Virus record (IMG/VR): IMGVR_UViG_3300009684_000126
Coordinates: 1-29,471 of that record
Direction: 5' to 3' (one strand)
DNA: 29,471 bases
Source of the DNA: a virus
Part shown: piece after piece, positions 2,436 through 26,562 of the stretch
How positions within the stretch are numbered: position 1 is the stretch's first letter
Layout: each line of letters begins with the position of its first letter
Made by a program: the position numbers and the translations under genes
Notes under the pieces: model-generated
The model's input: only the letters and a program-made list of their open reading frames with translations
Told to the model about the DNA's origin: nothing
The model's database searches: none

Positions 2436-6200
<3,765 letters not shown>

Positions 6201-10253: not shown

Positions 10254-10775
10254 ATGATACAACTAGTCAACAGACAAATATTAGACGACGGTACAGTAAT
10301 ATGTACCGTCGATGCCGCCATTGAAATGCTATATGCTGGTAAAAAGTTAGAGCAGGCAATACTAGAACCCAACGACGATGTTGATTTGTATAACCGCAGC
10401 AATGCCATGTTGGATCTTGAATTGGAATCATTGTTAACTGCAACAGGTGAATGTTTCGGTGATTATCCTTGGTATGATCAATGGGCTACCCCCGAACCAT
10501 GGTCAACTATGTCTGTATTAGACTATTGCATAGACCGTTGTACAGATGACGATCAGCGTATAAGGGTATGCGAAGAATATCAATTGTTTGATGAACGCAG
10601 TATGATACCTGTGCTACGACATCTCATTTGGATGGTCGACGACATGCGATCGCGTGGCATATTTTGGGGTGTAGGGCGCGGTAGCAGTGTCAGCAGTTAC
10701 ATTTTGTACCTTATTGGTATCAATAGAATCAATCCAATGCAATTTGATTTGGATGTTCGCGAATTCCTCAAATAA
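10254..10775 (+). CDS. Orphan DNA polymerase III alpha-like small protein
   Basis: 173 aa. The C-terminal ~65 residues resemble the palm segment of bacterial replicative polymerase III alpha (C family): residues 135-173 carry WGVGRGSSVSSYILYLIGI and then RINPMQFDL, comparable to [24 protein letters not shown]. The protein ends (VREFLK) just before the place where alpha subunits have their catalytic PDFDID aspartates, and it lacks the PHP and thumb/fingers domains, so polymerase activity is unlikely. I recall similar short proteins with WGVGRGSSV and a terminal EFLK in T4-like cyanophages, so the short form seems to be the normal length and not a fresh truncation. It is one base after the helicase gene. 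The role is unknown. Confidence 0.7.
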   Translation: MIQLVNRQILDDGTVICTVDAAIEMLYAGKKLEQAILEPNDDVDLYNRSNAMLDLELESLLTATGECFGDYPWYDQWATPEPWSTMSVLDYCIDRCTDDDQRIRVCEEYQLFDERSMIPVLRHLIWMVDDMRSRGIFWGVGRGSSVSSYILYLIGINRINPMQFDLDVREFLK

Positions 10776-12512: not shown

Positions 12513-12797
12513 ATGTATTATACCGACAGCCGTGTACGAACACCTCGCAGCCTAGTAGAGGATATGCAGGATAACTGGGGCAATCTTGCAGATCCTCGCA
12601 GAGAACTGGATCAAAAGTTCTGGAGTTTTATACTCAGCCAGTATACTGCTTTTGAATTTACAGAAATTGAAACGTGGTGTGACGATATGTTAGGGCACAA
12701 CAACTGGTTTAGAATGTTTAACAAGTTCTGGTTTACAAGCGAATCTGAATATGTTATGTTCCGTCTAGTATGGTCAGGAGTGGAACATGGACAGTGA
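12513..12797 (+). CDS. Hypothetical phage protein
   Basis: 94 aa, rich in aromatic residues (FWSFILSQYTAF, WCDDMLGHNNWFRMFNKFWF, YVMFRLVWSG). No catalytic motif is recognised. The C-terminal phrase FWFTSESEYVMFRLVWSG resembles the end of small phage proteins of unknown function that I recall from T4-like phages. It lies 14 bases after the clamp loader and overlaps the next gene by 11 bases, so it belongs to the same transcript. Position alone would suggest the gp62 clamp-loader partner, but length and sequence do not support that. Confidence 0.6.
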   Translation: MYYTDSRVRTPRSLVEDMQDNWGNLADPRRELDQKFWSFILSQYTAFEFTEIETWCDDMLGHNNWFRMFNKFWFTSESEYVMFRLVWSGVEHGQ

Positions 12798-13179
12798 TTT
12801 GGAATACAAGCCCGATGCAAAAGTAGTACGTACCTGCCGTGCGTTCATTCGCAGCTTGTGCGAAGCCTACGGCCATGGACAAGGTTTGGCTATTTGGGAC
12901 AGTGTGCGAGAAAAGCTTGGCGATCGTGCAGCAGGCGATATTTTTCTTGGCATGCTGATCAAATCCAGCGAGGCCAATATTGTTGCCACAGGTCCAAATT
13001 TTATCAGTGCAATCAAAGAACTTCGGCAGTTGACAGGATGGGGTCTGAAAGAATCCAAAGAATTCCTTGATAATGTACGCGACAAAGGTCCTGTTGCGTT
13101 GGACGTAACCAACTACGATGAAGAACGATTGGCAGTGTTTTATGAAAACATGCGACAAATTGGTGCAACAGTTGAATAA
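12787..13179 (+). CDS. Phage protein with ribosomal L7/L12 C-terminal-like domain
   Basis: 130 aa. Residues ~72-95 (NFISAIKELRQLTGWGLKESKEF) match the helical hairpin of the ribosomal protein L7/L12 C-terminal domain (compare K-IxVIKxVRxxTGLGLKEAK). The N-terminal part has a separate helical pattern (YGHGQGLAIWDSVREKLGD). L7/L12-like domains recruit translation factors in ribosomes, and in phages they occur in small proteins of unknown function. An effect on host translation is possible but unproven. The ATG is preceded by AGGAG (12776-12780) inside the previous gene. Confidence 0.6.
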   Translation: MDSDLEYKPDAKVVRTCRAFIRSLCEAYGHGQGLAIWDSVREKLGDRAAGDIFLGMLIKSSEANIVATGPNFISAIKELRQLTGWGLKESKEFLDNVRDKGPVALDVTNYDEERLAVFYENMRQIGATVE

Positions 13180-13196
13180 CTGAATAGGAGGGACAA

Positions 13197-13541
13197 ATGA
13201 TCCTTACAAGCCTAAACAAACAAAATCTGATCCATCCGCCCAAGTGGTTGCCGGATAATACAGCATATCTCACCATCATGGGCAGTCAGGCCTACGGTGT
13301 AAGTATTGACGACAGCGACCTTGATGTGTATGGTTTCTGCATTCCGCCCAAGGATCTGGTATTTCCGCACTTGGCAGGTGAAATCCCTGGCTTTGGTAGG
13401 CAGATCCAGCGATTCGACCAGTGGCAAGAACATAGAGTGCAGTCCGCAGATGTTGCAGAATATTGCAATAAACTTGGAATAACAGTTCCTGCATTAGATG
13501 AAGTAGAACGCGAAATGAAATCTCGCAATTTGAATAAATAG
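13197..13541 (+). CDS. Nucleotidyltransferase, N-terminal part of a split gene
   Basis: 114 aa. It carries the active-site pattern of the DNA polymerase beta nucleotidyltransferase superfamily: MGSQAYGVSIDDSDLDVYGF with Gly29-Ser30 and the metal-binding pair Asp41/Asp43. Intact relatives that I recall (the RlaP/COG3541-like group) are ~250-300 aa and continue after a phrase like RFDQWQEH into YDFSVYGIVKYFQLxxxNNPN. Here the homology breaks near residue 85, a ~29-residue unrelated tail follows, and the frame stops at 13541. The expected continuation resumes in the gene at 14229, after a GIY-YIG endonuclease gene. Ribosome site AGGAGGG (13187-13193) is very strong. Whether the two halves assemble into an active enzyme is unknown. 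Confidence 0.75.
   Translation: MILTSLNKQNLIHPPKWLPDNTAYLTIMGSQAYGVSIDDSDLDVYGFCIPPKDLVFPHLAGEIPGFGRQIQRFDQWQEHRVQSADVAEYCNKLGITVPALDEVEREMKSRNLNK
13532..13540 (+). promoter_or_regulatory. Putative T4-like late promoter for the homing endonuclease
   Basis: GAATAAATA overlaps the end of the split nucleotidyltransferase N-terminal ORF, 45 bases before the endonuclease ATG. If it works like a T4 late promoter, transcription would start about six bases after the box (near 13546), inside the left arm of the adjacent hairpin. Confidence 0.5.
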
Positions 13542-13577
13542 AACAATGGCACGATATAGTGTAGTGCCATTGTTCTA
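13539..13577 (+). promoter_or_regulatory. 14-bp hairpin before the homing endonuclease
   Basis: A perfect inverted repeat, TAGAACAATGGCAC (13539-13552) and GTGCCATTGTTCTA (13564-13577), with an 11-base loop. It contains the stop codon of the upstream ORF and ends at the weak ribosome site (AGG at 13577-13579) of the endonuclease. No U-tract follows, so it is not a typical intrinsic terminator. A translation-blocking structure is more likely. Confidence 0.7.
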
Positions 13578-13585
13578 GGTGTTAC

Positions 13586-14251
13586 ATGGCATACTTTATT
13601 TACATAACAGAAAATTTAATAAATGGTAGAAAATATATAGGCAAGCATTCAGGTGATATATCTGATGGATATTTAGGATCTGGTATGTTACTGAAGCGGG
13701 CCATTGAAAAATATGGTATTGATAATTTCAAACGAGATATCATCGAAATAGTAGACACTGAAATTGATTTAGATAATGCAGAACGTAAATGGATAGCTGA
13801 GTTCGATGCAGCATCAAATCCGTTATTTTATAATTTAACAGAAGGTGGCACTGGTGGTAATACTTTAAAATATTTACCAGCCGATGTAGTATCAAAAACT
13901 AGAAGTGGGTGGTTTGCTAAATTAAATGACGTTGATAAGGAAAAAGTCAGAGAACAACGTAAAATGCACTTGACTAACTTGCGAGCAGATGCTAGTTTGG
14001 AAAAACAAAGACTGGCAGCTCAACAGAAGTATTATCAAAACTTAACAGAAGATGATAAAGATAAATTGTATGCATCGCGTAGAGGTAAAAATGCATATCA
14101 AGCAAAATCTGTAAAAACTCCATTAGGTGTATTTGATACTGCAAAAGATGCAAGTAGAGCACACAATGTTAATATACAAACAATTTTAAATAGATGTAAT
14201 AATCCTAACTTTGCGGATTGGAAATTTAATGAAAACCCTAGCAGACCTTGA
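13586..14251 (+). CDS. GIY-YIG homing endonuclease
   Basis: 221 aa. The GIY-YIG nuclease domain occupies residues ~1-95: YFIYITENLINGRKYIGKHSG (degenerate first tripeptide, intact YIG), then GYLGSGMLLKRAIEKYGIDNF and the conserved glutamate in LDNAERKWI, followed by YNLTEGGTGG. After a charged helical linker, the C-terminus (TPLGVFDTAKDASRAHNV ... ILNRCNNPNFADWKF) looks like a NUMOD1-type helix-turn-helix DNA-binding repeat. GC content is visibly lower (a sampled 60-base stretch is ~32% versus ~48% in the flanking gene), which suggests transfer. It interrupts a nucleotidyltransferase gene and overlaps the start of its second half by 23 bases. No group I intron core was recognised, so it seems free-standing. 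Confidence 0.88.
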   Translation: MAYFIYITENLINGRKYIGKHSGDISDGYLGSGMLLKRAIEKYGIDNFKRDIIEIVDTEIDLDNAERKWIAEFDAASNPLFYNLTEGGTGGNTLKYLPADVVSKTRSGWFAKLNDVDKEKVREQRKMHLTNLRADASLEKQRLAAQQKYYQNLTEDDKDKLYASRRGKNAYQAKSVKTPLGVFDTAKDASRAHNVNIQTILNRCNNPNFADWKFNENPSRP

Positions 14252-14921
14252 TAATACAGAGCTTTTAAAGCTTCATACTCTTATGTCAACAAAAACTACA
14301 TATGACTTTTCTGTCTACGGCATTGTAAAGTATTTCCAACTGTGCATGGAAAACAATCCCAATATGATTGACAGCCTGTTCACTCCTCGCAACTGTGTTA
14401 TTCACAGCACTGCGGTAAGTGAACTTGTTCGTGAAAACCGTCGTATGTTCCTGCACAAAGGTGCATGGCACAAGTTCAAAGGTTATGCCTATGCACAGAT
14501 GGCAAAGATCCGTACCAAGACCAATGCCAACAATGAAAAGCGTGCTGCCAGCATTGCTGCACATGGCTACGATCTCAAGTTTGCATATCACATTGTGCGA
14601 CTGCTGAATGAAGCCGAACAGATCATGGTTGAAGGCGACTTGGATCTGCAACGCAACAGGGAACAGCTCAAAGAGATCCGTCGCGGTGAATGGACCATGG
14701 AACAAGTGGAGAACTACTTTGAGAACAAGGAACGTGCGCTGGAATTGACCTATGCTAATAGTCAATTGCCGCATAGTCCGGATGAAGCTGCTGTTAAAAC
14801 ACTGTTGATCAACTGCATGGAACAACATTACGGTGATCTCAGCACTGCTGTTAGCCGTAATGTCAATGTGGATGCAATGGCTCGCGAAATCCGCTCTGTC
14901 TTGGATCGCTATGTTGTTTAA
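14229..14921 (+). CDS. Nucleotidyltransferase, C-terminal part of a split gene
   Basis: 230 aa from the ATG at 14229 (a TTG at 14211 is also in frame; an ATG at 14283 gives a shorter form). Residues ~22-100 continue the nucleotidyltransferase family of the ORF at 13197: TTYDFSVYGIVKYFQLCMEN, NPNMIDSLFTP, then FLHKGAWHKFKGYAYAQMAKI. The helical rest (FAYHIVRLLNEAEQIMVEGDLDL, then LKEIRRGEW) is also family-like. The first ~20 residues (MKTLADLDNTELLKLHTLMS) do not belong to the family as I know it and probably come from the insertion. The start overlaps the endonuclease gene. The catalytic aspartates are in the other half, so this piece alone cannot be catalytic. Confidence 0.75.
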   Translation: MKTLADLDNTELLKLHTLMSTKTTYDFSVYGIVKYFQLCMENNPNMIDSLFTPRNCVIHSTAVSELVRENRRMFLHKGAWHKFKGYAYAQMAKIRTKTNANNEKRAASIAAHGYDLKFAYHIVRLLNEAEQIMVEGDLDLQRNREQLKEIRRGEWTMEQVENYFENKERALELTYANSQLPHSPDEAAVKTLLINCMEQHYGDLSTAVSRNVNVDAMAREIRSVLDRYVV

Positions 14922-18354: not shown

Positions 18355-21300
18355 TCATTCGACAATCTTTTCAAGTGCTGAGATTTTAGATTCCAACTGA
18401 TCAATCTGCCGTTGTTGTTCTTTGATGGCTTCGACCAACAGCGGTATAACCTTTTCATATTGGATAGTCTTGTAGTTTTCACCGCTCTTGCTGGATCCAT
18501 CTGTATTGGTATCAAACGGTGCAGAACGTATAACATGCGGTAATACTGCTTCAACTTCCTGTGCAATCAAACCAACTTTTGAAGTATGACGGCTTTCATG
18601 CAGCAGTGATTCTGCCAATCGGCTTGGATTGTAATAAACGCCGTTGATAGCAGACAGCATACCCATGGCATTGGTTATCAGCGTGATATTGTCCTTGAGT
18701 CTCACGTCTGAATAGTATGCTGTGACTTCGCCTGTTGCAGTGATGTTACCTGTTACTGCCAAGTTTGCAGTGGCGTTTGTACCGTTTTTGGTAAGTGTCA
18801 TTACAGAAGTAGAACTGACTGCCCATCCTAGTGATGTAGCACTTGGCAAATACATGCCATTGGTAGGAATAGTTGCGCTGCTTGGTACAAATGCTGTACC
18901 AGTTACTGTACCGTTACTGGTTACAGATGCAACACTTGCAGAACCTGCTGTGCTAAATGCAGTTCTGGCAGATATTACACCGTTAACATCCAGTGTACTG
19001 CCTGGTGTAACTGTTGCGATACCAACTGTACCAGTAGACGTAATGCGCATCACTTCTGGCACACCGTTGGGACCTAATGTACTTAGACCTGTACCAAAGC
19101 TGATACCACCGTTATTGGTTGTTACTGTGTTACCGTTGTTGAATCCTACCCAGCCCATGTAAGTAGCATCAATTTTCTGCTGGATTCTTTTACCAGCAGT
19201 GGTCCAATCCACACCGCCTGTTGCATTCCGTACATCTGTGAATTCTAAATAACTGGCATTACCAACATCACTATTATACAAAGTCAACAGTGGGGATTGG
19301 CTGTTGGCCACTGTGCCCAATGCAGCACCGGTAACACTTGACTTAAAGGTACCGATGGCCGAACCGCCAACACCAAGCGTACCCGAAACTGTTAAGTCGC
19401 TGACACCATATGGAGCATTCAATGCCTGAACACAGTTGATTTCAATTGTTGCGAAGTTAGGCGGAGCACTGGAAAATGTTAGAGTTGTACCGCTCCAACT
19501 GTATGTGCTCTTGCGCTGATAAACGCCGTTAACAAATACCATAGTATTGTTAATGCTGCTGGCAGTTATAGGACTTGTGCTATAGCCTGTAGTTGAACCG
19601 TTTCCTGTATAGTTGAACGTGGTATAGGTATTGACCGCAGTGTTTAAGAACGTACCGTCTGGGAAATAAATGCCAGATCCGCCAGCAGTGGTGTTGCCGA
19701 TAACAATGTTACCATAATGCTGTGCAGTGCCATATATAGTAAACACGTTGCTGTTGATACCAGTTGCGGTACTAGTACCTATACCTACGTAGTTAGTGAA
19801 TAAGTTTCGCGACCCGCCAATGTTTATGTTGCCAGCAGCACCTATGCCGCCCGCTACAACCAATGCACCATTTGTTGTTGCAGTACTTGTGTTGGTGCTG
19901 TTAACAGTGACGTTCTGCCCGAACAAGCCGTAGACGTTGCCGACCAGTGCGTTAACAGTTGCAGTGCCACCTGTGCTGAATGCAGTTCTTGCGCTGATAA
20001 TGCCGTTTACGTCCAGTGTACTAAGTGGAGTAAATGTACCAATACCAACTGAACCTTGTACACTCAACCCGTTGGTGTTGGTCATTGCAGCAAGGCCGCT
20101 GAAACCGTTACCAATGGCAACAGTGCCGTTGATGTCCATGGTGTTTTGTGGTTGTGTAATACCATTGACGCCGATGCGATATGCACCTGTACCATATGCC
20201 CATGCTAACGCAGGCGTACTGGCAGCACTGTCACCTCTGCGTAGATAACCTATGCTGTTACCAACGCTGGGATCGTATCCCAATACAGCACCATAGGTAG
20301 TCACGTTGCCCACAGTTATTTCTTGACGTGCGCCACCGCCTGGTTTAGTGTTGAATAATACAGCTTCTGCACTGTATGCAGAAATGGTCTGTCCAGGTGT
20401 AGACGTGCCGATACCTAATCTGTTGTTGGTATCATCCCAGAAGAAGTTGGTGGTGTCACCAAGGAAGGTATTACCAGCACCTGCAAACTGTATGGTGCCT
20501 GCTGTACCGAAACTGACAGTAGCAGCAGTTGGGCTGGCAGCACTGTTTTGTATAGTACCATCAGAGAATACAATGCCACTGCTGGTGGTAGCGGTGTTTG
20601 CAATTCTCACGTTGCCCCAATGATATGCATCGTTGCTAACACCCGCAGCAGCAATCATACCTGCTGCTGTACTAGTACCAATGCCTATTGCACCTGTAAA
20701 CAGGCTTCTACTACCGCCGGCATTTACGTTGCCTGCAATACCTGCACCACCTGTTGTTATTATTAAAGCACCGTTGCTAATAGCTGTGCTAGCATTGGCA
20801 CTGTTAACAGTTACGTTTTGCCCGAATAAGCCATAAACGTTGCTTACAAGTGCGTTGGTAGTTGTAGTCCCGCTGTTTTGTATTGATGTAAATGTACCAG
20901 TAGTACCAGTTATAGTAGTACCACTTATAGCGCCGTTGCTTACAAAACTAGCAACTGTTGCTTGTCCCGTACTTTGAATATTAGTTGCAACTACGTTGGT
21001 GTTGCTATTCAAGCTTTGAACTAATGTTGTACCGCTGTTTTGTATTGATGTAAATGTACCAGTAGTACCAGTTATAGTAGTACCACTTATAGCGCCATTG
21101 CTTACCAAACTAGCTACAGTAGCTTGTCCAGTACTCTGAATATTGGTTGCAACTATGTTAGTATTGCTGTTGAGCAAATTGACAATTGCAGCACCTGCAC
21201 TATTTACTGTGCCGCCGTATAGAGCACCAGTAAATGTACCAGTGGTGCCACTGACTGCGCCGTTGCTAGCCAACGCATTAACTGTAGCTGTACCAGCAGT

Positions 21301-24300
21301 GTTGAAACTACCACCATACAGTGCACCAGTAAACGTACCGGTTGTACCACTAACTGCACCGTTGCTTACCAAACTAGCTACAGTAGCTTGTCCTGTGCTT
21401 TGAATATTAGTTGCAACGACGTTGGTGTTGCTGTTGAGCGAATTGACAATTGCAGCACCTGCACTATTTACTGTGCCGCCATATAACGCACCAGTAAATG
21501 TGCCAGCTGTACCACTAACTGCGCCATTGCTAGTCAATGCGTTTACAGTTGCAGTACCAGCCGTGTTGAAACTTGCTCCGTATAGAGCACCGGTAAACGT
21601 ACCAGTTGTGCCACTAACCGCACCATTGCTTACAAGTGCGTTTACTGTAGCTGTACCAGCAGTGTTGAAACTTGCTCCGTATAGAGCAGATGTAAATGTA
21701 CCATTTGTGCCACTAACTGCACCATTGCTTACAAGTGCGTTTACTGTAGCTGTACCAGCAGTGTTGAAACTTGCTCCGTATAGAGCAGATGTAAATGTAC
21801 CAGTTGTGCCACTAACTGCACCATTGCTAGTCAAGCTGTTTACTTGTGCAGCACCTGCTATGTTAAGTGTGCTTGCGCCGTATATTAAACCACCTACATG
21901 AACTGCGCCCTGTATACCAGCACCGCCGCCCATGAGCAGTGCGCCTGTGACAGTGCTGGTGCTTGCAGTGGTATTGTTAATAGTCAAGTTGCCTACTTGC
22001 ACAGGTCCACTTAGATAGCTAGCTACGTTTGTGTTGCTATAATTTCCAGATCCTGATCCTGTTGCTGCTGTAGTTTGGAATGTGCCATCTGCAAAGTAAA
22101 TACCAGCAACACCCGCTGCTTGGTTTTGTAATACTATATTACCGTAATGCTGTGCGGTGCCATATACAGTAAACACGTTGCTGTTGATACCAATTGCGGT
22201 GCTAGTACCTATACCAACGTAGTTAGTGAATGTATTTCTAGAACCGCTGATATTAATATTGCCAGATGCAGTCATACTTACTGTGCTAATATTATTAACA
22301 CCGGATATGTTACCACTTGTACCAGTAGTGGTAATATTACCGCCAACAAACAAGTTACCGGCAGCACCTATACCACCAGCTACAACCAGCGCACCTGTTG
22401 CGGTACTTGTGCTTGCGTTTGTGCTATTGACAGTTACGTTTTGACCAAACAAGCCATAGACATTGCTTACTAATGCGTTTACTGTAGCAGTTCCGCCCAA
22501 TGTAAGAGTGGTTGCAGTTATGCCGGCGTTGCTGGTTATATCTCTAACAAATAAAGATCCTGTAATGCTTGTAGCACTGCCAATACCAACGTTACCGGTG
22601 GTATCAATACGCATACGCTCTAATGATATAGTCCTAAAGATAGCGTTTGCAGCACCGGCCGAACCTACATAAAGATCATTTGCACCAGTTGCTTGTAAAA
22701 AGATAGATCCTGTGAAAGCAGAAACTGCTATACCACCAGTTGTTGAGCCTGCATAGAATTGAGTAGCAGCATTTGTACCGATAACTGCCATACCGCTGCC
22801 TACATATGAAGTCGGAGTGGGTGTACCAACTCCTACGTTGCCGTTAGCATCAATGCGTATGCGTTCGCTACCACTCGTGCTTAAAGAAAGTGCGTTGGTA
22901 GTTGGTAGATATAATCCTGCACCCGGAATACTAGCACTTGTTGGTTGGAAGCTGGCTGCTACCACGTTGCTGCCTGCATAAACGTTACCTGCTACGCCAA
23001 TGCCGCCTGCTATAATCAATGCGCCTGTTGTGGTACTAGTACTTGTGTTGGTGCTGTTAACTGTTAGATTCTGTGCAAATACGGCATTTCCATAATTGGT
23101 AAGCGTGAGCGCAGCCGCAGGTGCTGATGCACCGGTCTTAATAGTTACGTTTGATGCAGATATTGCATAAGGCGTGTACGCTGTTCCGGCAGCATTTAGT
23201 GCATCATTGGCCACACCATATCCTGCGGTACCGTTGGTGGCTATAGCAAACTGATCACCTGTGCTACTACCCTTGATCCTGAGGGTATATTCTAGTGAGC
23301 CGCTGCCTATGAAATTGACAAACCCTGTTGTAGTTAATCCACTTGCTATACCAGCGCCGCCTGCTACTACAAGAGCACCAGTTGTTGCAGATGTAGTTGA
23401 TGCTGCGTTAGTAGAGTTAATAGTTACGTTCTGTCCAAATACGCCATACACGTTGCCGACCAATGCGTTGGTTGTTGTTGTACCACTGACTTGTAGAGAA
23501 GTAAATGTAGCAGCAGTACCCGTCACTGTTGTACCAGTTATTGCACCATTGCTAGTTAAGCTATTGACTATAGCACCATTTTGCACGTTCAGTGTGCTAC
23601 TGGTTGTGTTGGCATTAACAAGTAGACTTGCAAGTTGTGCCTGACCACTGCTTTGTAGTGTTGCACCAAACACATTGGTGTTGCCAATCAAACTGCTGAC
23701 CTGTGCAGCACCACTTATATTGATGTTGGCACCGAATATGTTGGCATTGCTTATCAACTGATTGACTGTTGCCAGTCCAGTTGACTGTAAATTAACACCT
23801 ACCACGTTGGTATTGCTGTTTAAGCTATTAACTAGTGCAGCACCTGCAATGTTTAAGTTTGCACTGTAAATACCTGCGTTGCTTATCAAGCTGTTGACTT
23901 GAGCAGCACCTGTGACATTTAACGTAGCAGTTGTGGTATTGACATTGACGATCAAACTTGCCAGTTGTGCAGGACCGCCAATGTTGATGTTGGCACCGTA
24001 TATGTTGGCATTGCTTATCAATTGATTAACTGTTGCAAGGCCGGCACTTTGCAGTGTAGCAGTTGTGGTATAACCGTTGCTAGTAAAGTTAGCAGCTTGC
24101 GCTAAGCCGGTGCTGTTTAGTGTAGCAGTTGTGGTATTGGCATTGGCGATTAAACTTGACAGTTGTGCAAGTCCACTAGTATTCAGTGTTGCGCCGAATA
24201 TATTTGCGTTGGCAATTAAACTTGCAACGCTGGCCAATCCAGTACTTTGAACGTTGGTAGCAACCACATTTGTATTGCTGTTCAGGCTAGCAACTATTAC

Positions 24301-26562
24301 GTTACTGGTTGCATTAAGTGTGCTTGTGGTTATATTTGTGTTGGCAATCATCGAGCTAACTGATGCAAGCCCTGTTGACTGTAAGTTAACACCGACCACG
24401 TTGGTATTGCTAGACAGCGCATTTACAGTTGCAGTACCACCTGTACTGAATGCAGTTCTTGCGCTAATAATGCCGTTTACGTCCAGTGTACTAAGTGGAG
24501 TAAATGTACCAATACCAACAGATCCTTGAACAGCAAGTCCATTGCTAGGTGGGTTAATAAAGTTGTTGTTGCCAGCAAATGTACCACCTATTACAGTAGT
24601 ACCGCCTATTTCCAATGTGTTTTGCGGTATGGTTATACCACCTATACCGGTCTTACCAGACGTCACAGATATGTTTTTAGATGCTGCGCCAACAAAACTT
24701 ATGTAACCATAAGTGTTGAGACCTGAACCTGCGCTGCTGTTATATCCGACCACAGTACCGTATGAACTGGTATTGCTGTTACCAACAATTATCTGTTGAT
24801 CCGCACCGTTTGTTGTACTGAATAATGCAGGTGTTGCAGAGAACACTGTCAAGCTGTTGGTTAGACTGATAGTGCCAATGCCAAGACGCTTGTTTACATT
24901 GTCATATAAGAAATCAGTATCACCGCCAAATACACCGTTGTTGTTGTATTGTACGCTTTGGTTTATACCACCAATAGTGCCTGCCGTTTGTTGATATGTG
25001 CCGTCTGGGAAGTAGATACCACTGCCGCCTGATGTGGTGTTGGCAATTATCAAGTTACCGTAGAGATTTTCTGTGCCATATACGGCCAATACGTTTGCTC
25101 GTGCACCGAGTATAACACTGGTACCAATGCCAACCTTATTGCTAAACAGATTATTAGCACCGTTTACGTTCAAGTTACCGTTGATACCAACTCCGCCTGC
25201 AACTATTAGCGCACCTGCTGTGTATGCAGTACTGGCATTGGTACTGTTAACAGCGACGTTTTGTCCAAACACGCCATATACGTTGCTTGACAATGCGTTG
25301 GTAGTTGTAGTGCCGCTGTTTTGTAATGAGGTAAATGTACCGGCAGTACCAGTTATGGTTGTGCCAGTTATTGCGCCGTTGCTAGCCAGCGCATTTACAG
25401 TAGCAGTACCCGCTGTGTTGAAGCTTGCTCCGTATAGAGCACCTGTGAATGTGCCAGTGGTGCCACTGACCGCGCCGTTGCTGGCAAGTGCGTTTACTGT
25501 AGCTGTACCTGCGGTGTTAAAGCTTGCTCCGTATAGAGCACCTGTGAATGTGCCAGTTGTGCCACTGACTGCGCCGTTACTAGTCAGTGCATTTACAGTA
25601 GCAGTACCCGCAGTGTTAAAACTCGCACCGTAAAGTGCACCTGTAAATGTACCAGTTGTGCCACTTACTGCGCCATTGCTAGCCAATGCGTTTACTGTAG
25701 CTGTACCGGCTGATTGAATTGCACCATTACTGGTCATAGACGATGCGACAATGCTGTTACTTGCTATGACAAAGCTGAGTTGGCTAGCCAATGCAACTGA
25801 TAAGTTGCCACCTATGTTAACACTGCCCTGTATACCAGCACCACCGCCCATAAGCAATGCACCTGTGACAGTGCTGGTGCTGGCAGTGGTGTTGTTGATA
25901 GTCAAGTTGCCAACTTGTACTGGGCCGCTTAGATAACTGGCCACGTTTGTATTGCTATAGTTGCCAGGTGCAGCACCTGCTGTGGTTTGGAATGTGCCAT
26001 CTGCAAAGTATATGCCTGCGCCGCCTGCGGCTTGGCTCTGCAATGCAATATTACCATATTGCTGTGTAGTACCATATACTGCAAGCACGTTGCTGTTGGC
26101 ACCGGTTATAGTGCTGGTACCTATACCTACTTTACCATTAAACAGGTCATTGCTGCCCAATACAACAATGTTGCCAGTTATATATTGATTTTGTGCAACA
26201 TAGGAGTTGCCAGTTGCGTATAAATTGCCTGCAACGCTGAGAACATTACTGGCTTGTCCCTGTGACGCACCTATGGTCACGTTACCGTTGTATTGTGCGA
26301 GAACTATGTTACCCAAACTGTTGACAGTTATGCTGGGAATACCACTTATATCATTGACTGCAAATATGGTGCCAGTTAAGCTATTTGTAATGCTAAACAA
26401 TTGTCCAGCAGTGCCACTCCAACTCAGTGTACCACTGGCATACATTGCCATGTTAATACTATTGGCCACAGTGGTATTACCGCCTGTGAAAACAATGGTT
26501 GGATCAGCAGTGCTGGATCCAATACTAGGGGTAATAATTATATTTTTATCTGTATTGGCCAT
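18355..26562 (-). CDS. Giant tail-fibre protein with C-terminal S74 chaperone/autoprotease
   Basis: 2735 aa. The N-terminus (MANTDKNIIITPSIGSSTAD) leads into a very long Asn/Thr/Ser/Ala-rich shaft with repeated modules such as IYFADGTFQTTA, TGALVVAGGIGAAGNL, VGIGTST and SERIRIDANGNVGVGT. Arrays of 22- and 33-residue units (e.g. TAGTATVNALASNGAVSGTT) fill three sections. Residues ~2612-2735 are a peptidase S74 / intramolecular chaperone domain: YYSDVRLKDNI with Ser2618-Asp2619, GLIAQEVEAVLPHVI, then IQYEKVIPLLVEAI and a terminal coiled coil. In this family the domain trimerises the fibre and cuts itself off just before the serine. It is far longer than T4 gp34 (~1290 aa). A TAAATA box precedes the ATG by ~22 bases. 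Confidence 0.92.
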   Translation of the reverse strand: MANTDKNIIITPSIGSSTADPTIVFTGGNTTVANSINMAMYASGTLSWSGTAGQLFSITNSLTGTIFAVNDISGIPSITVNSLGNIVLAQYNGNVTIGASQGQASNVLSVAGNLYATGNSYVAQNQYITGNIVVLGSNDLFNGKVGIGTSTITGANSNVLAVYGTTQQYGNIALQSQAAGGAGIYFADGTFQTTAGAAPGNYSNTNVASYLSGPVQVGNLTINNTTASTSTVTGALLMGGGAGIQGSVNIGGNLSVALASQLSFVIASNSIVASSMTSNGAIQSAGTATVNALASNGAVSGTTGTFTGALYGASFNTAGTATVNALTSNGAVSGTTGTFTGALYGASFNTAGTATVNALASNGAVSGTTGTFTGALYGASFNTAGTATVNALASNGAITGTTITGTAGTFTSLQNSGTTTTNALSSNVYGVFGQNVAVNSTNASTAYTAGALIVAGGVGINGNLNVNGANNLFSNKVGIGTSVILGARANVLAVYGTENLYGNLIIANTTSGGSGIYFPDGTYQQTAGTIGGINQSVQYNNNGVFGGDTDFLYDNVNKRLGIGTISLTNSLTVFSATPALFSTTNGADQQIIVGNSNTSSYGTVVGYNSSAGSGLNTYGYISFVGAASKNISVTSGKTGIGGITIPQNTLEIGGTTVIGGTFAGNNNFINPPSNGLAVQGSVGIGTFTPLSTLDVNGIISARTAFSTGGTATVNALSSNTNVVGVNLQSTGLASVSSMIANTNITTSTLNATSNVIVASLNSNTNVVATNVQSTGLASVASLIANANIFGATLNTSGLAQLSSLIANANTTTATLNSTGLAQAANFTSNGYTTTATLQSAGLATVNQLISNANIYGANINIGGPAQLASLIVNVNTTTATLNVTGAAQVNSLISNAGIYSANLNIAGAALVNSLNSNTNVVGVNLQSTGLATVNQLISNANIFGANINISGAAQVSSLIGNTNVFGATLQSSGQAQLASLLVNANTTSSTLNVQNGAIVNSLTSNGAITGTTVTGTAATFTSLQVSGTTTTNALVGNVYGVFGQNVTINSTNAASTTSATTGALVVAGGAGIASGLTTTGFVNFIGSGSLEYTLRIKGSSTGDQFAIATNGTAGYGVANDALNAAGTAYTPYAISASNVTIKTGASAPAAALTLTNYGNAVFAQNLTVNSTNTSTSTTTGALIIAGGIGVAGNVYAGSNVVAASFQPTSASIPGAGLYLPTTNALSLSTSGSERIRIDANGNVGVGTPTPTSYVGSGMAVIGTNAATQFYAGSTTGGIAVSAFTGSIFLQATGANDLYVGSAGAANAIFRTISLERMRIDTTGNVGIGSATSITGSLFVRDITSNAGITATTLTLGGTATVNALVSNVYGLFGQNVTVNSTNASTSTATGALVVAGGIGAAGNLFVGGNITTTGTSGNISGVNNISTVSMTASGNINISGSRNTFTNYVGIGTSTAIGINSNVFTVYGTAQHYGNIVLQNQAAGVAGIYFADGTFQTTAATGSGSGNYSNTNVASYLSGPVQVGNLTINNTTASTSTVTGALLMGGGAGIQGAVHVGGLIYGASTLNIAGAAQVNSLTSNGAVSGTTGTFTSALYGASFNTAGTATVNALVSNGAVSGTNGTFTSALYGASFNTAGTATVNALVSNGAVSGTTGTFTGALYGASFNTAGTATVNALTSNGAVSGTAGTFTGALYGGTVNSAGAAIVNSLNSNTNVVATNIQSTGQATVASLVSNGAVSGTTGTFTGALYGGSFNTAGTATVNALASNGAVSGTTGTFTGALYGGTVNSAGAAIVNLLNSNTNIVATNIQSTGQATVASLVSNGAISGTTITGTTGTFTSIQNSGTTLVQSLNSNTNVVATNIQSTGQATVASFVSNGAISGTTITGTTGTFTSIQNSGTTTTNALVSNVYGLFGQNVTVNSANASTAISNGALIITTGGAGIAGNVNAGGSRSLFTGAIGIGTSTAAGMIAAAGVSNDAYHWGNVRIANTATTSSGIVFSDGTIQNSAASPTAATVSFGTAGTIQFAGAGNTFLGDTTNFFWDDTNNRLGIGTSTPGQTISAYSAEAVLFNTKPGGGARQEITVGNVTTYGAVLGYDPSVGNSIGYLRRGDSAASTPALAWAYGTGAYRIGVNGITQPQNTMDINGTVAIGNGFSGLAAMTNTNGLSVQGSVGIGTFTPLSTLDVNGIISARTAFSTGGTATVNALVGNVYGLFGQNVTVNSTNTSTATTNGALVVAGGIGAAGNINIGGSRNLFTNYVGIGTSTATGINSNVFTIYGTAQHYGNIVIGNTTAGGSGIYFPDGTFLNTAVNTYTTFNYTGNGSTTGYSTSPITASSINNTMVFVNGVYQRKSTYSWSGTTLTFSSAPPNFATIEINCVQALNAPYGVSDLTVSGTLGVGGSAIGTFKSSVTGAALGTVANSQSPLLTLYNSDVGNASYLEFTDVRNATGGVDWTTAGKRIQQKIDATYMGWVGFNNGNTVTTNNGGISFGTGLSTLGPNGVPEVMRITSTGTVGIATVTPGSTLDVNGVISARTAFSTAGSASVASVTSNGTVTGTAFVPSSATIPTNGMYLPSATSLGWAVSSTSVMTLTKNGTNATANLAVTGNITATGEVTAYYSDVRLKDNITLITNAMGMLSAINGVYYNPSRLAESLLHESRHTSKVGLIAQEVEAVLPHVIRSAPFDTNTDGSSKSGENYKTIQYEKVIPLLVEAIKEQQRQIDQLESKISALEKIVE
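20860..21860 (-). repeat. Interleaved 66/99-bp coding repeats (array 2)
   Basis: About 990 bp coding for 330 residues. The units run 33, 33, 33, 33, 22, 33, 33, 22, 33, 22, 33 residues, typified by TAGTATVNALVSNGAVSGTT and STGQATVASLVSNGA. Some neighbours are almost identical at the DNA level: 21639-21737 and 21738-21836 differ at only a few bases. Confidence 0.8.
23490..24445 (-). repeat. 22-residue (66-bp) coding repeats (array 3)
   Basis: About thirteen 22-residue units (STGLASVASLIANANIFGATLN-like) followed by one 33-residue unit in the giant fibre shaft. Consensus: xxG-x-A-x-V-x-x-L-xxNxNxxxxxLx. The DNA copies are more diverged than in the other two arrays. Confidence 0.8.
25318..25713 (-). 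repeat. 33-residue (99-bp) coding repeats (array 1)
   Basis: Four consecutive 99-bp units near the 5' end of the giant fibre gene. On the + strand the conserved phrase g-c-(a/g)-tttac beginning each unit recurs at 25391, 25490, 25589 and 25688, exactly 99 bases apart. Confidence 0.85.

Follow-up and report, generated by a model that had tools for sequence, protein, structure and literature searches.

The window analysed here, a stretch of 29,471 nt that is a 29-kb fragment of a virus (record IMGVR_UViG_3300009684_000126), carries an RlaP nucleotidyltransferase gene in two pieces, with complementary halves of a single enzyme (family PF10127/phrog_388) encoded by the ORFs at 13197-13541 and 14229-14921. 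The gene was almost certainly split via insertion of an endonuclease gene, and the halves are likely to form a functional two-piece RlaP, joined by docking tails that the insertion itself brought. Association of the halves, enzyme activity and homing are inferred, in the absence of transcript, protein or complex data.

The divided gene and its intact counterpart

The N ORF matches PF10127 (RlaP) over profile positions 19-53 (E 5e-5, 23.5 bits; cut-off 23) and phrog_388 over positions 28-69, and the C ORF matches PF10127 over positions 70-185 (E 3e-10, 40.7 bits, above the family cut-off) and phrog_388 with an E-value of 1e-38. Each half matches RlaP independently and the matched parts of PF10127 adjoin; therefore, the ORFs are complementary parts of one RlaP family. 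RlaP is found in one piece in L006, a 519-kb jumbo-phage contig that shares with the window the gene order clamp loader, small ORF, L12-like ORF and RlaP. The features of the split locus are listed below.

13197..13439, + strand: RlaP N-terminal core, residues 1-81 (PF10127/phrog_388; 86% identity to intact L006 RlaP; invariant residues kept), with the GS motif at G29-S30 and SDxD at D41/D43
13440..13541, + strand: N-tail with TAG stop, residues 82-114 (QSADVAEYCNKLGITVPALDEVEREMKSRNLNK); part of the insert, without counterpart in intact L006
13539..13577, + strand: hairpin with a 14-bp stem, lying between the N-half stop and the endonuclease start (shuffle z -6.6); it is preceded by AATAAATA, which is T4 late-promoter-like
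13586..14251, + strand: GIY-YIG (Seg-like) homing endonuclease gene, 221 aa, 33% GC (PF01541, SegE_GIY-YIG, phrog_314)
14229..14294, + strand: C-head (MKTLADLDNTELLKLHTLMSTK), first part of the C half; no counterpart in L006, 33% GC
14295..14921, + strand: RlaP C-terminal core, D26 in TYDF followed by the helical part (PF10127/phrog_388; 82% identity to intact L006 RlaP)

In the alignment to L006, homology extends as far as N residue ~81-83 (nt ~13445), is then lost, and restarts at C residue ~19-25 (nt ~14283). L006 has 8 residues from V81 to YDF, and Q82-S83 together with M19-T24 rebuild exactly this spacing, which places the insert at ~13446 to 14282 (~837 bp), with the joined flanks exactly of L006 length. 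This AT-rich insert contains the GIY-YIG endonuclease gene, the hairpin and both tails. The same split is present at 99.9% DNA identity in contigs of two other metagenomes (L003 and L004), and the same insertion is present in L005 at 73-74% identity, with an endonuclease that is 62% identical and similar tails; hence the split is not an assembly error. An intact, syntenic L006 set beside the window, L003, L004 and L005, all with an endonuclease between two open halves, satisfies the criterion for a gene in pieces, and both the existence of the split and the insert boundaries at this locus are established. Since L005 adjoins intact L006 in the RlaP tree, the split must have been gained or lost inside that small group. 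By our script criteria, 249 of 346 RlaP loci are simple, intact single ORFs.

A first-pass annotation, made without database searches, had described two ORFs at these positions as complementary nucleotidyltransferase halves of the RlaP family, kept open without decay and separated by an AT-rich GIY-YIG gene, with homology breaks near 13450 and 14290 and an insert of about 840 bp. All of this held: the positions in an ORF check of the window, the halves as adjoining parts of PF10127/phrog_388, the family by profile matches, the endonuclease gene by PF01541, phrog_314 and its 33% GC, the open frames, the break points within ~10 nt and the insert length as measured against L006. It had proposed a search of related contigs for an uninterrupted allele, which L006 now provides. 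It had also held that homologues normally encoded by two genes, or ORFs belonging to different families, would refute the reading; neither was seen, intact homologues being one ORF.

The endonuclease ORF (13586-14251) matches PF01541 (E 1e-5) and phrog_314 (homing endonuclease, E 3e-39); PF01541 and SegE_GIY-YIG are above cut-off and TIGR01453 is below it. The hairpin recurs after the N-half stop of L005 with paired changes (z -5.1), and L071, L320 and L068 have hairpins in which a ribosome-binding site is enclosed and the loop is TATAAATA-like. Endonuclease genes of T4 have hairpins of this kind. The C half begins before the endonuclease gene has ended, with an overlap of 23 nt in the window, ATGA in L005 and 14 nt in Aeromonas phage Aeh1; translation of the C half is therefore likely to be coupled to that of the endonuclease gene, although this is an inference. 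That the endonuclease cuts the intact allele and homes is likewise inferred: the allele pattern fits, and there are no cleavage data.

The window endonuclease is 50% identical to the homing endonuclease of Rhizobium phage RHph_I1_18 (L115:4989-5687), its closest relative in cultured phage. That gene lies directly 5' of an intact RlaP and overlaps the RlaP start, an arrangement that could represent a free-standing stage prior to insertion. An origin of the N-tail from the peptidyl-tRNA hydrolase gene 5' of the RHph_I1_18 endonuclease was considered and rejected, as no likeness was seen by eye.

Several neighbouring genes also deserve mention. The ORF at 12787-13179, which adjoins RlaP and is conserved in L006, has a ribosomal L7/L12 C-terminal-like domain (PF00542, E 6.5e-6). 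A short DNA polymerase III alpha piece at 10254-10775 (PF07733, phrog_11127) fits the minimal PolIII described for jumbo phages, which is reported to consist of two separate proteins (PMC7824862). A 1254-aa collagen-like GPTG-repeat protein and a 2735-aa repeat protein are encoded at 2436-6200 and 18355-26562 (minus strand), respectively; the terminal RLKDNI motif of the latter recalls intramolecular tail-fibre chaperones.

Related tails at two split sites

The split of the window and L005 (site A) is not the only one in the family. Site B lies after the helix KGYAYSQMHK of RlaP, where 11 RlaPs are split: L066, L067, L068, L069, L071, L073, L143, L153, L205, L239 and L320. A TnsA-like nuclease (weak PF08722, phrog_218) is found at site B in L066, L069, L071, L143, L153, L205, L239 and L320; its family is inferred from the TnsA likeness to be PD-(D/E)XK. 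L067 retains only a 33-aa remnant of the TnsA-like nuclease, together with both halves and tails, L068 has an HNH enzyme, and L073 has a GIY-YIG gene on the opposite strand. RlaP has been split several times independently, with different nucleases, mostly unrelated ones at site B. All reading frames are open in the 13 different split alleles of the two sites. The share of 13 among 116 distinct cores is not a frequency, because the loci were partly gathered with split genes as queries. Seven further RlaPs are unsplit but have 49-75 aa inserted in frame at site B; L148, with the N-tail and C-head fused in frame, is the clear case, and the remaining fused inserts are less alike.

Every RlaP split has an N-tail, with consensus LxxFxxxCxKxxI...sLexVExEMxxR, and a C-head, with consensus MxxLxxLsDeELxxL. 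The motif L..L.D.EL is common to the C-heads of the window, L005 and site B. A site-B N-tail HMM, trained on the site-B N-tails and two fused ones, was searched against 14,801 ORF C-ends; the two site-A N-tails rank first and second outside the training loci (E 0.008 and 0.056; next 1.7), and the window N-tail is the best non-training match. With the site-B head HMM, L005 ranks first (E 0.46), and the window C-head is not listed and has no significance alone, so the homology of the tails across sites A and B, which these searches establish, rests mainly on the N-tails. The first-pass annotation had called the tails, put at ~29 and ~20 residues, unrelated; they measure 33 and ~18-22 residues and are homologous to other split-RlaP tails. 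Their conservation and recurrence at a second split site had been missed.

The tails resemble the nuclease in composition. In the window, GC is 36% in the N-tail and 33% in the C-head, compared with 47% in the core; in L005 it is 33-41% in the tails and 36% between them, compared with 58% in the core. Across 13 loci, the tails are GC-poorer than the host gene, like the nuclease (Wilcoxon P=0.0002). They are under purifying selection: compared with random placement of the same DNA differences, fewer amino-acid changes are found in the site-A tails (window/L005, P=0.0005) and in the site-B tails (L071/L320, P=0.001 and <0.0005), in a test that ended before its last sequence pairs. This selection may reflect another role, for example RNA binding.

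Tail-bearing genes are scattered on the RlaP tree, with 18 changes over 116 rows, as with random labels. Support is low in places, and the well-supported branches require only 8 of the changes. The scatter fits repeated gain with the insert, or gain and loss by recombination. Comparison of the tails with Pfam and PHROGs gave no credible family, non-RlaP genes in 37 whole records (~11 Mb phage DNA) gave only weak matches, and tblastn searches of 50,697 phage records with a 50-aa consensus of the tail pair returned nothing credible at E<=10.

Some observations on the sites themselves are recorded here. Column 155 of RlaP, 9 residues before site B, is Gln in 91 of 93 intact viral RlaPs and S/T/G/M in all nine TnsA-like splits (L066, L067 with its remnant, L069, L071, L143, L153, L205, L239 and L320), with Gln155 retained in the HNH and GIY-YIG splits and in all fused forms. 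The association with the TnsA-like nuclease has a Fisher P of 1e-9, relatedness being ignored; possibly the change marks where the nuclease cuts, as self-protection, or a boundary of the transferred unit. At site A, the window and L005 have R/K in place of His80 (H in 79 of 93). A third site of RlaP interruption is seen at L062:3300-4010, where a group II intron (RF00029, 60.6 bits) is apparently without a reading frame.

Invariant residues, selection and known split enzymes

D41, D43 and D91 show no variation among 162 intact RlaPs (93 viral, 69 bacterial) or in any split one. Site A separates the invariant DxD, which stays with the N half, from the invariant Asp of YD; the latter belongs to the C half, where it is D26, the third invariant acid (family column 91). 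By analogy with Pol-beta enzymes, D91 would be the third metal-binding acid, its catalytic role being inferred. Since it lies in the C half and neither half has all three invariant acids, we infer that neither alone would be active.

The structure model of the fused relative L148 (mean pLDDT 91) adopts a nucleotidyltransferase fold; among solved structures, HalB and aminoglycoside nucleotidyltransferases come closest, with modest Z. Site A is predicted in this model to be a beta-hairpin turn between strands 76-84 and 89-97; the fused tail helices reach pLDDT of just ~60-75. When the N half is modelled alone, the strand beside the break (residues 73-83) is predicted to be disordered, and the N-tail to form two helices.

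Both halves are under purifying selection, with pN of 0.11 and 0.14 against pS of 0.79 and 0.80 between the window and L005, and the split genes show no excess change at conserved columns except those beside site B. Each of 12 jumbo/large records has one RlaP, and 3 of these, >190 kb, are clearly split. A second intact RlaP elsewhere in the window phage remains possible, as the window is a 29-kb fragment. From selection and the conserved sites, and without activity data, we regard both halves as very likely to be functional. The suggestion of the first-pass annotation that the split enzyme is possibly functional is strengthened by the selection on halves and tails, the single RlaP per jumbo contig and the intact conserved residues; its comparison with Aeh1 nrdA also held, the layout being the same.

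In nrdA-a/mobE/nrdA-b of Aeromonas phage Aeh1, as in the window, a homing endonuclease splits an enzyme gene, and a stop and hairpin are followed by an endonuclease gene whose end overlaps the start of the second half. The host gene is nrdA rather than RlaP, and the endonuclease HNH rather than GIY-YIG. The split Aeh1 NrdA is active (PMC2988022); its tails are reported to be essential interaction domains for assembly, and reportedly this led to the suggestion that insertion-borne tails are a general way to survive gene fragmentation (Crona et al. 2011). No sequence likeness between the NrdA and RlaP tails is evident by eye, and whereas Aeh1 is a single described case, the RlaP tails form a recurrent family. 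Enzymes in two polypeptides are also made from gene 43A/43B of Aeromonas phages 25 and 44RR and from T4 topoisomerase genes 60/39, with mobA; these splits, which differ from the window in host gene, are attributed to insertion of an endonuclease or untranslated sequence, and the phage 25 gp43 parts co-purify (PMC2988022). The two parts of 44RR gene 43 are not separated by an endonuclease, a situation comparable to that of L067. The free-standing Seg/Mob endonucleases of T4-like phages share the GIY-YIG family, hairpin and late-promoter-like leader with the window endonuclease, but they lie beside coding sequence, whereas it lies inside that of RlaP. T4 mobD adjoins nrdC.11, whose Aeh1 namesake is RlaP. 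The RlaP of jumbo phages, which has the family and the invariant residues in common with the window halves, is normally one polypeptide.

Alternative explanations and implications

In one alternative, the insert would be a group I (or II) intron that houses the GIY-YIG gene, so that RNA splicing joins the halves and the tails are untranslated intron. This endonuclease type does occur in group I introns (TIGR01453, below cut-off), the insert is length-preserving, and small group I introns are numerous in Jug phages (PMC12363816). However, the window gave no Rfam match at the gathering threshold, with no intron family at E<=5 in 13100-14500, although the same search recovered the group II intron in the L062 RlaP as a positive control. 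Moreover, the endonuclease gene takes up all but ~140+30 nt of the insert, and the tails are conserved as protein and in frame in the fused forms. We consider an intron very unlikely. An intein was rejected, as each tail (<=33 aa) is far too short and profile searches matched no intein family.

The tails might instead be an RlaP domain with its own function, such as RNA binding, that was invaded by homing endonucleases, with reassembly as a by-product. The seven RlaPs with an unsplit insert at site B and the confinement of the tails to RlaP in the records searched speak for this. Against it, the tails are AT-rich like the nuclease, missing from most of the RlaP tree, scattered, and placed at two different loops, and L148 adjoins split L068 in the tree, which fits re-fusion after nuclease loss; the explanation seems unlikely. 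That the insertion killed RlaP and left the halves awaiting decay agrees with the interrupted gene and the lack of expression data, but is hard to sustain, and we hold it to be very improbable. L005, only 73% identical, shares the split, and in this comparison silent sites are saturated while pN stays far lower than pS; conserved columns carry no excess changes, save beside site B; and 13 of 13 different split alleles are open.

The reading we prefer is a two-piece enzyme held together by tails that came with the insertion. The mobile unit would consist of the N-tail, stop, hairpin, GIY-YIG homing endonuclease, start and C-head, and would enter a phage RlaP gene at the beta-hairpin turn. The enzyme would then be produced as two polypeptides, neither with all three invariant acids, and the insertion-borne tails, as short helical pieces folding together, would hold the halves and restore the enzyme. 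Tails of the same kind sit at a second loop in the fused forms and in the majority of the other splits, and the endonuclease would spread the split allele through cleavage of intact RlaP genes. That the tails are docking parts brought by the insert is an inference that the evidence favours only by a narrow margin. A bolder form of this reading, which we could as readily see fail as stand, is that a mobile insertion family carries a standard docking-tail pair, reused at two RlaP sites with three nuclease families, with the nuclease sometimes lost or the tails re-fused, so that protein reassembly, not splicing, neutralises the insertion.

RlaP of jumbo phages is predicted to put back nucleotides that RNA ends have lost, ahead of ligation (PMC7824862); therefore, if the split RlaP works, the enzyme would serve against host RNases. 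The 13 split RlaPs, with related tails at two loops and three nuclease types, are comparative evidence in nature for insertion-borne tails. Because the tails are related, the assembly idea is testable by tail swap, deletion or mutation, and could yield small natural split-protein tags. Split phage genes should not be dismissed as pseudogenes.
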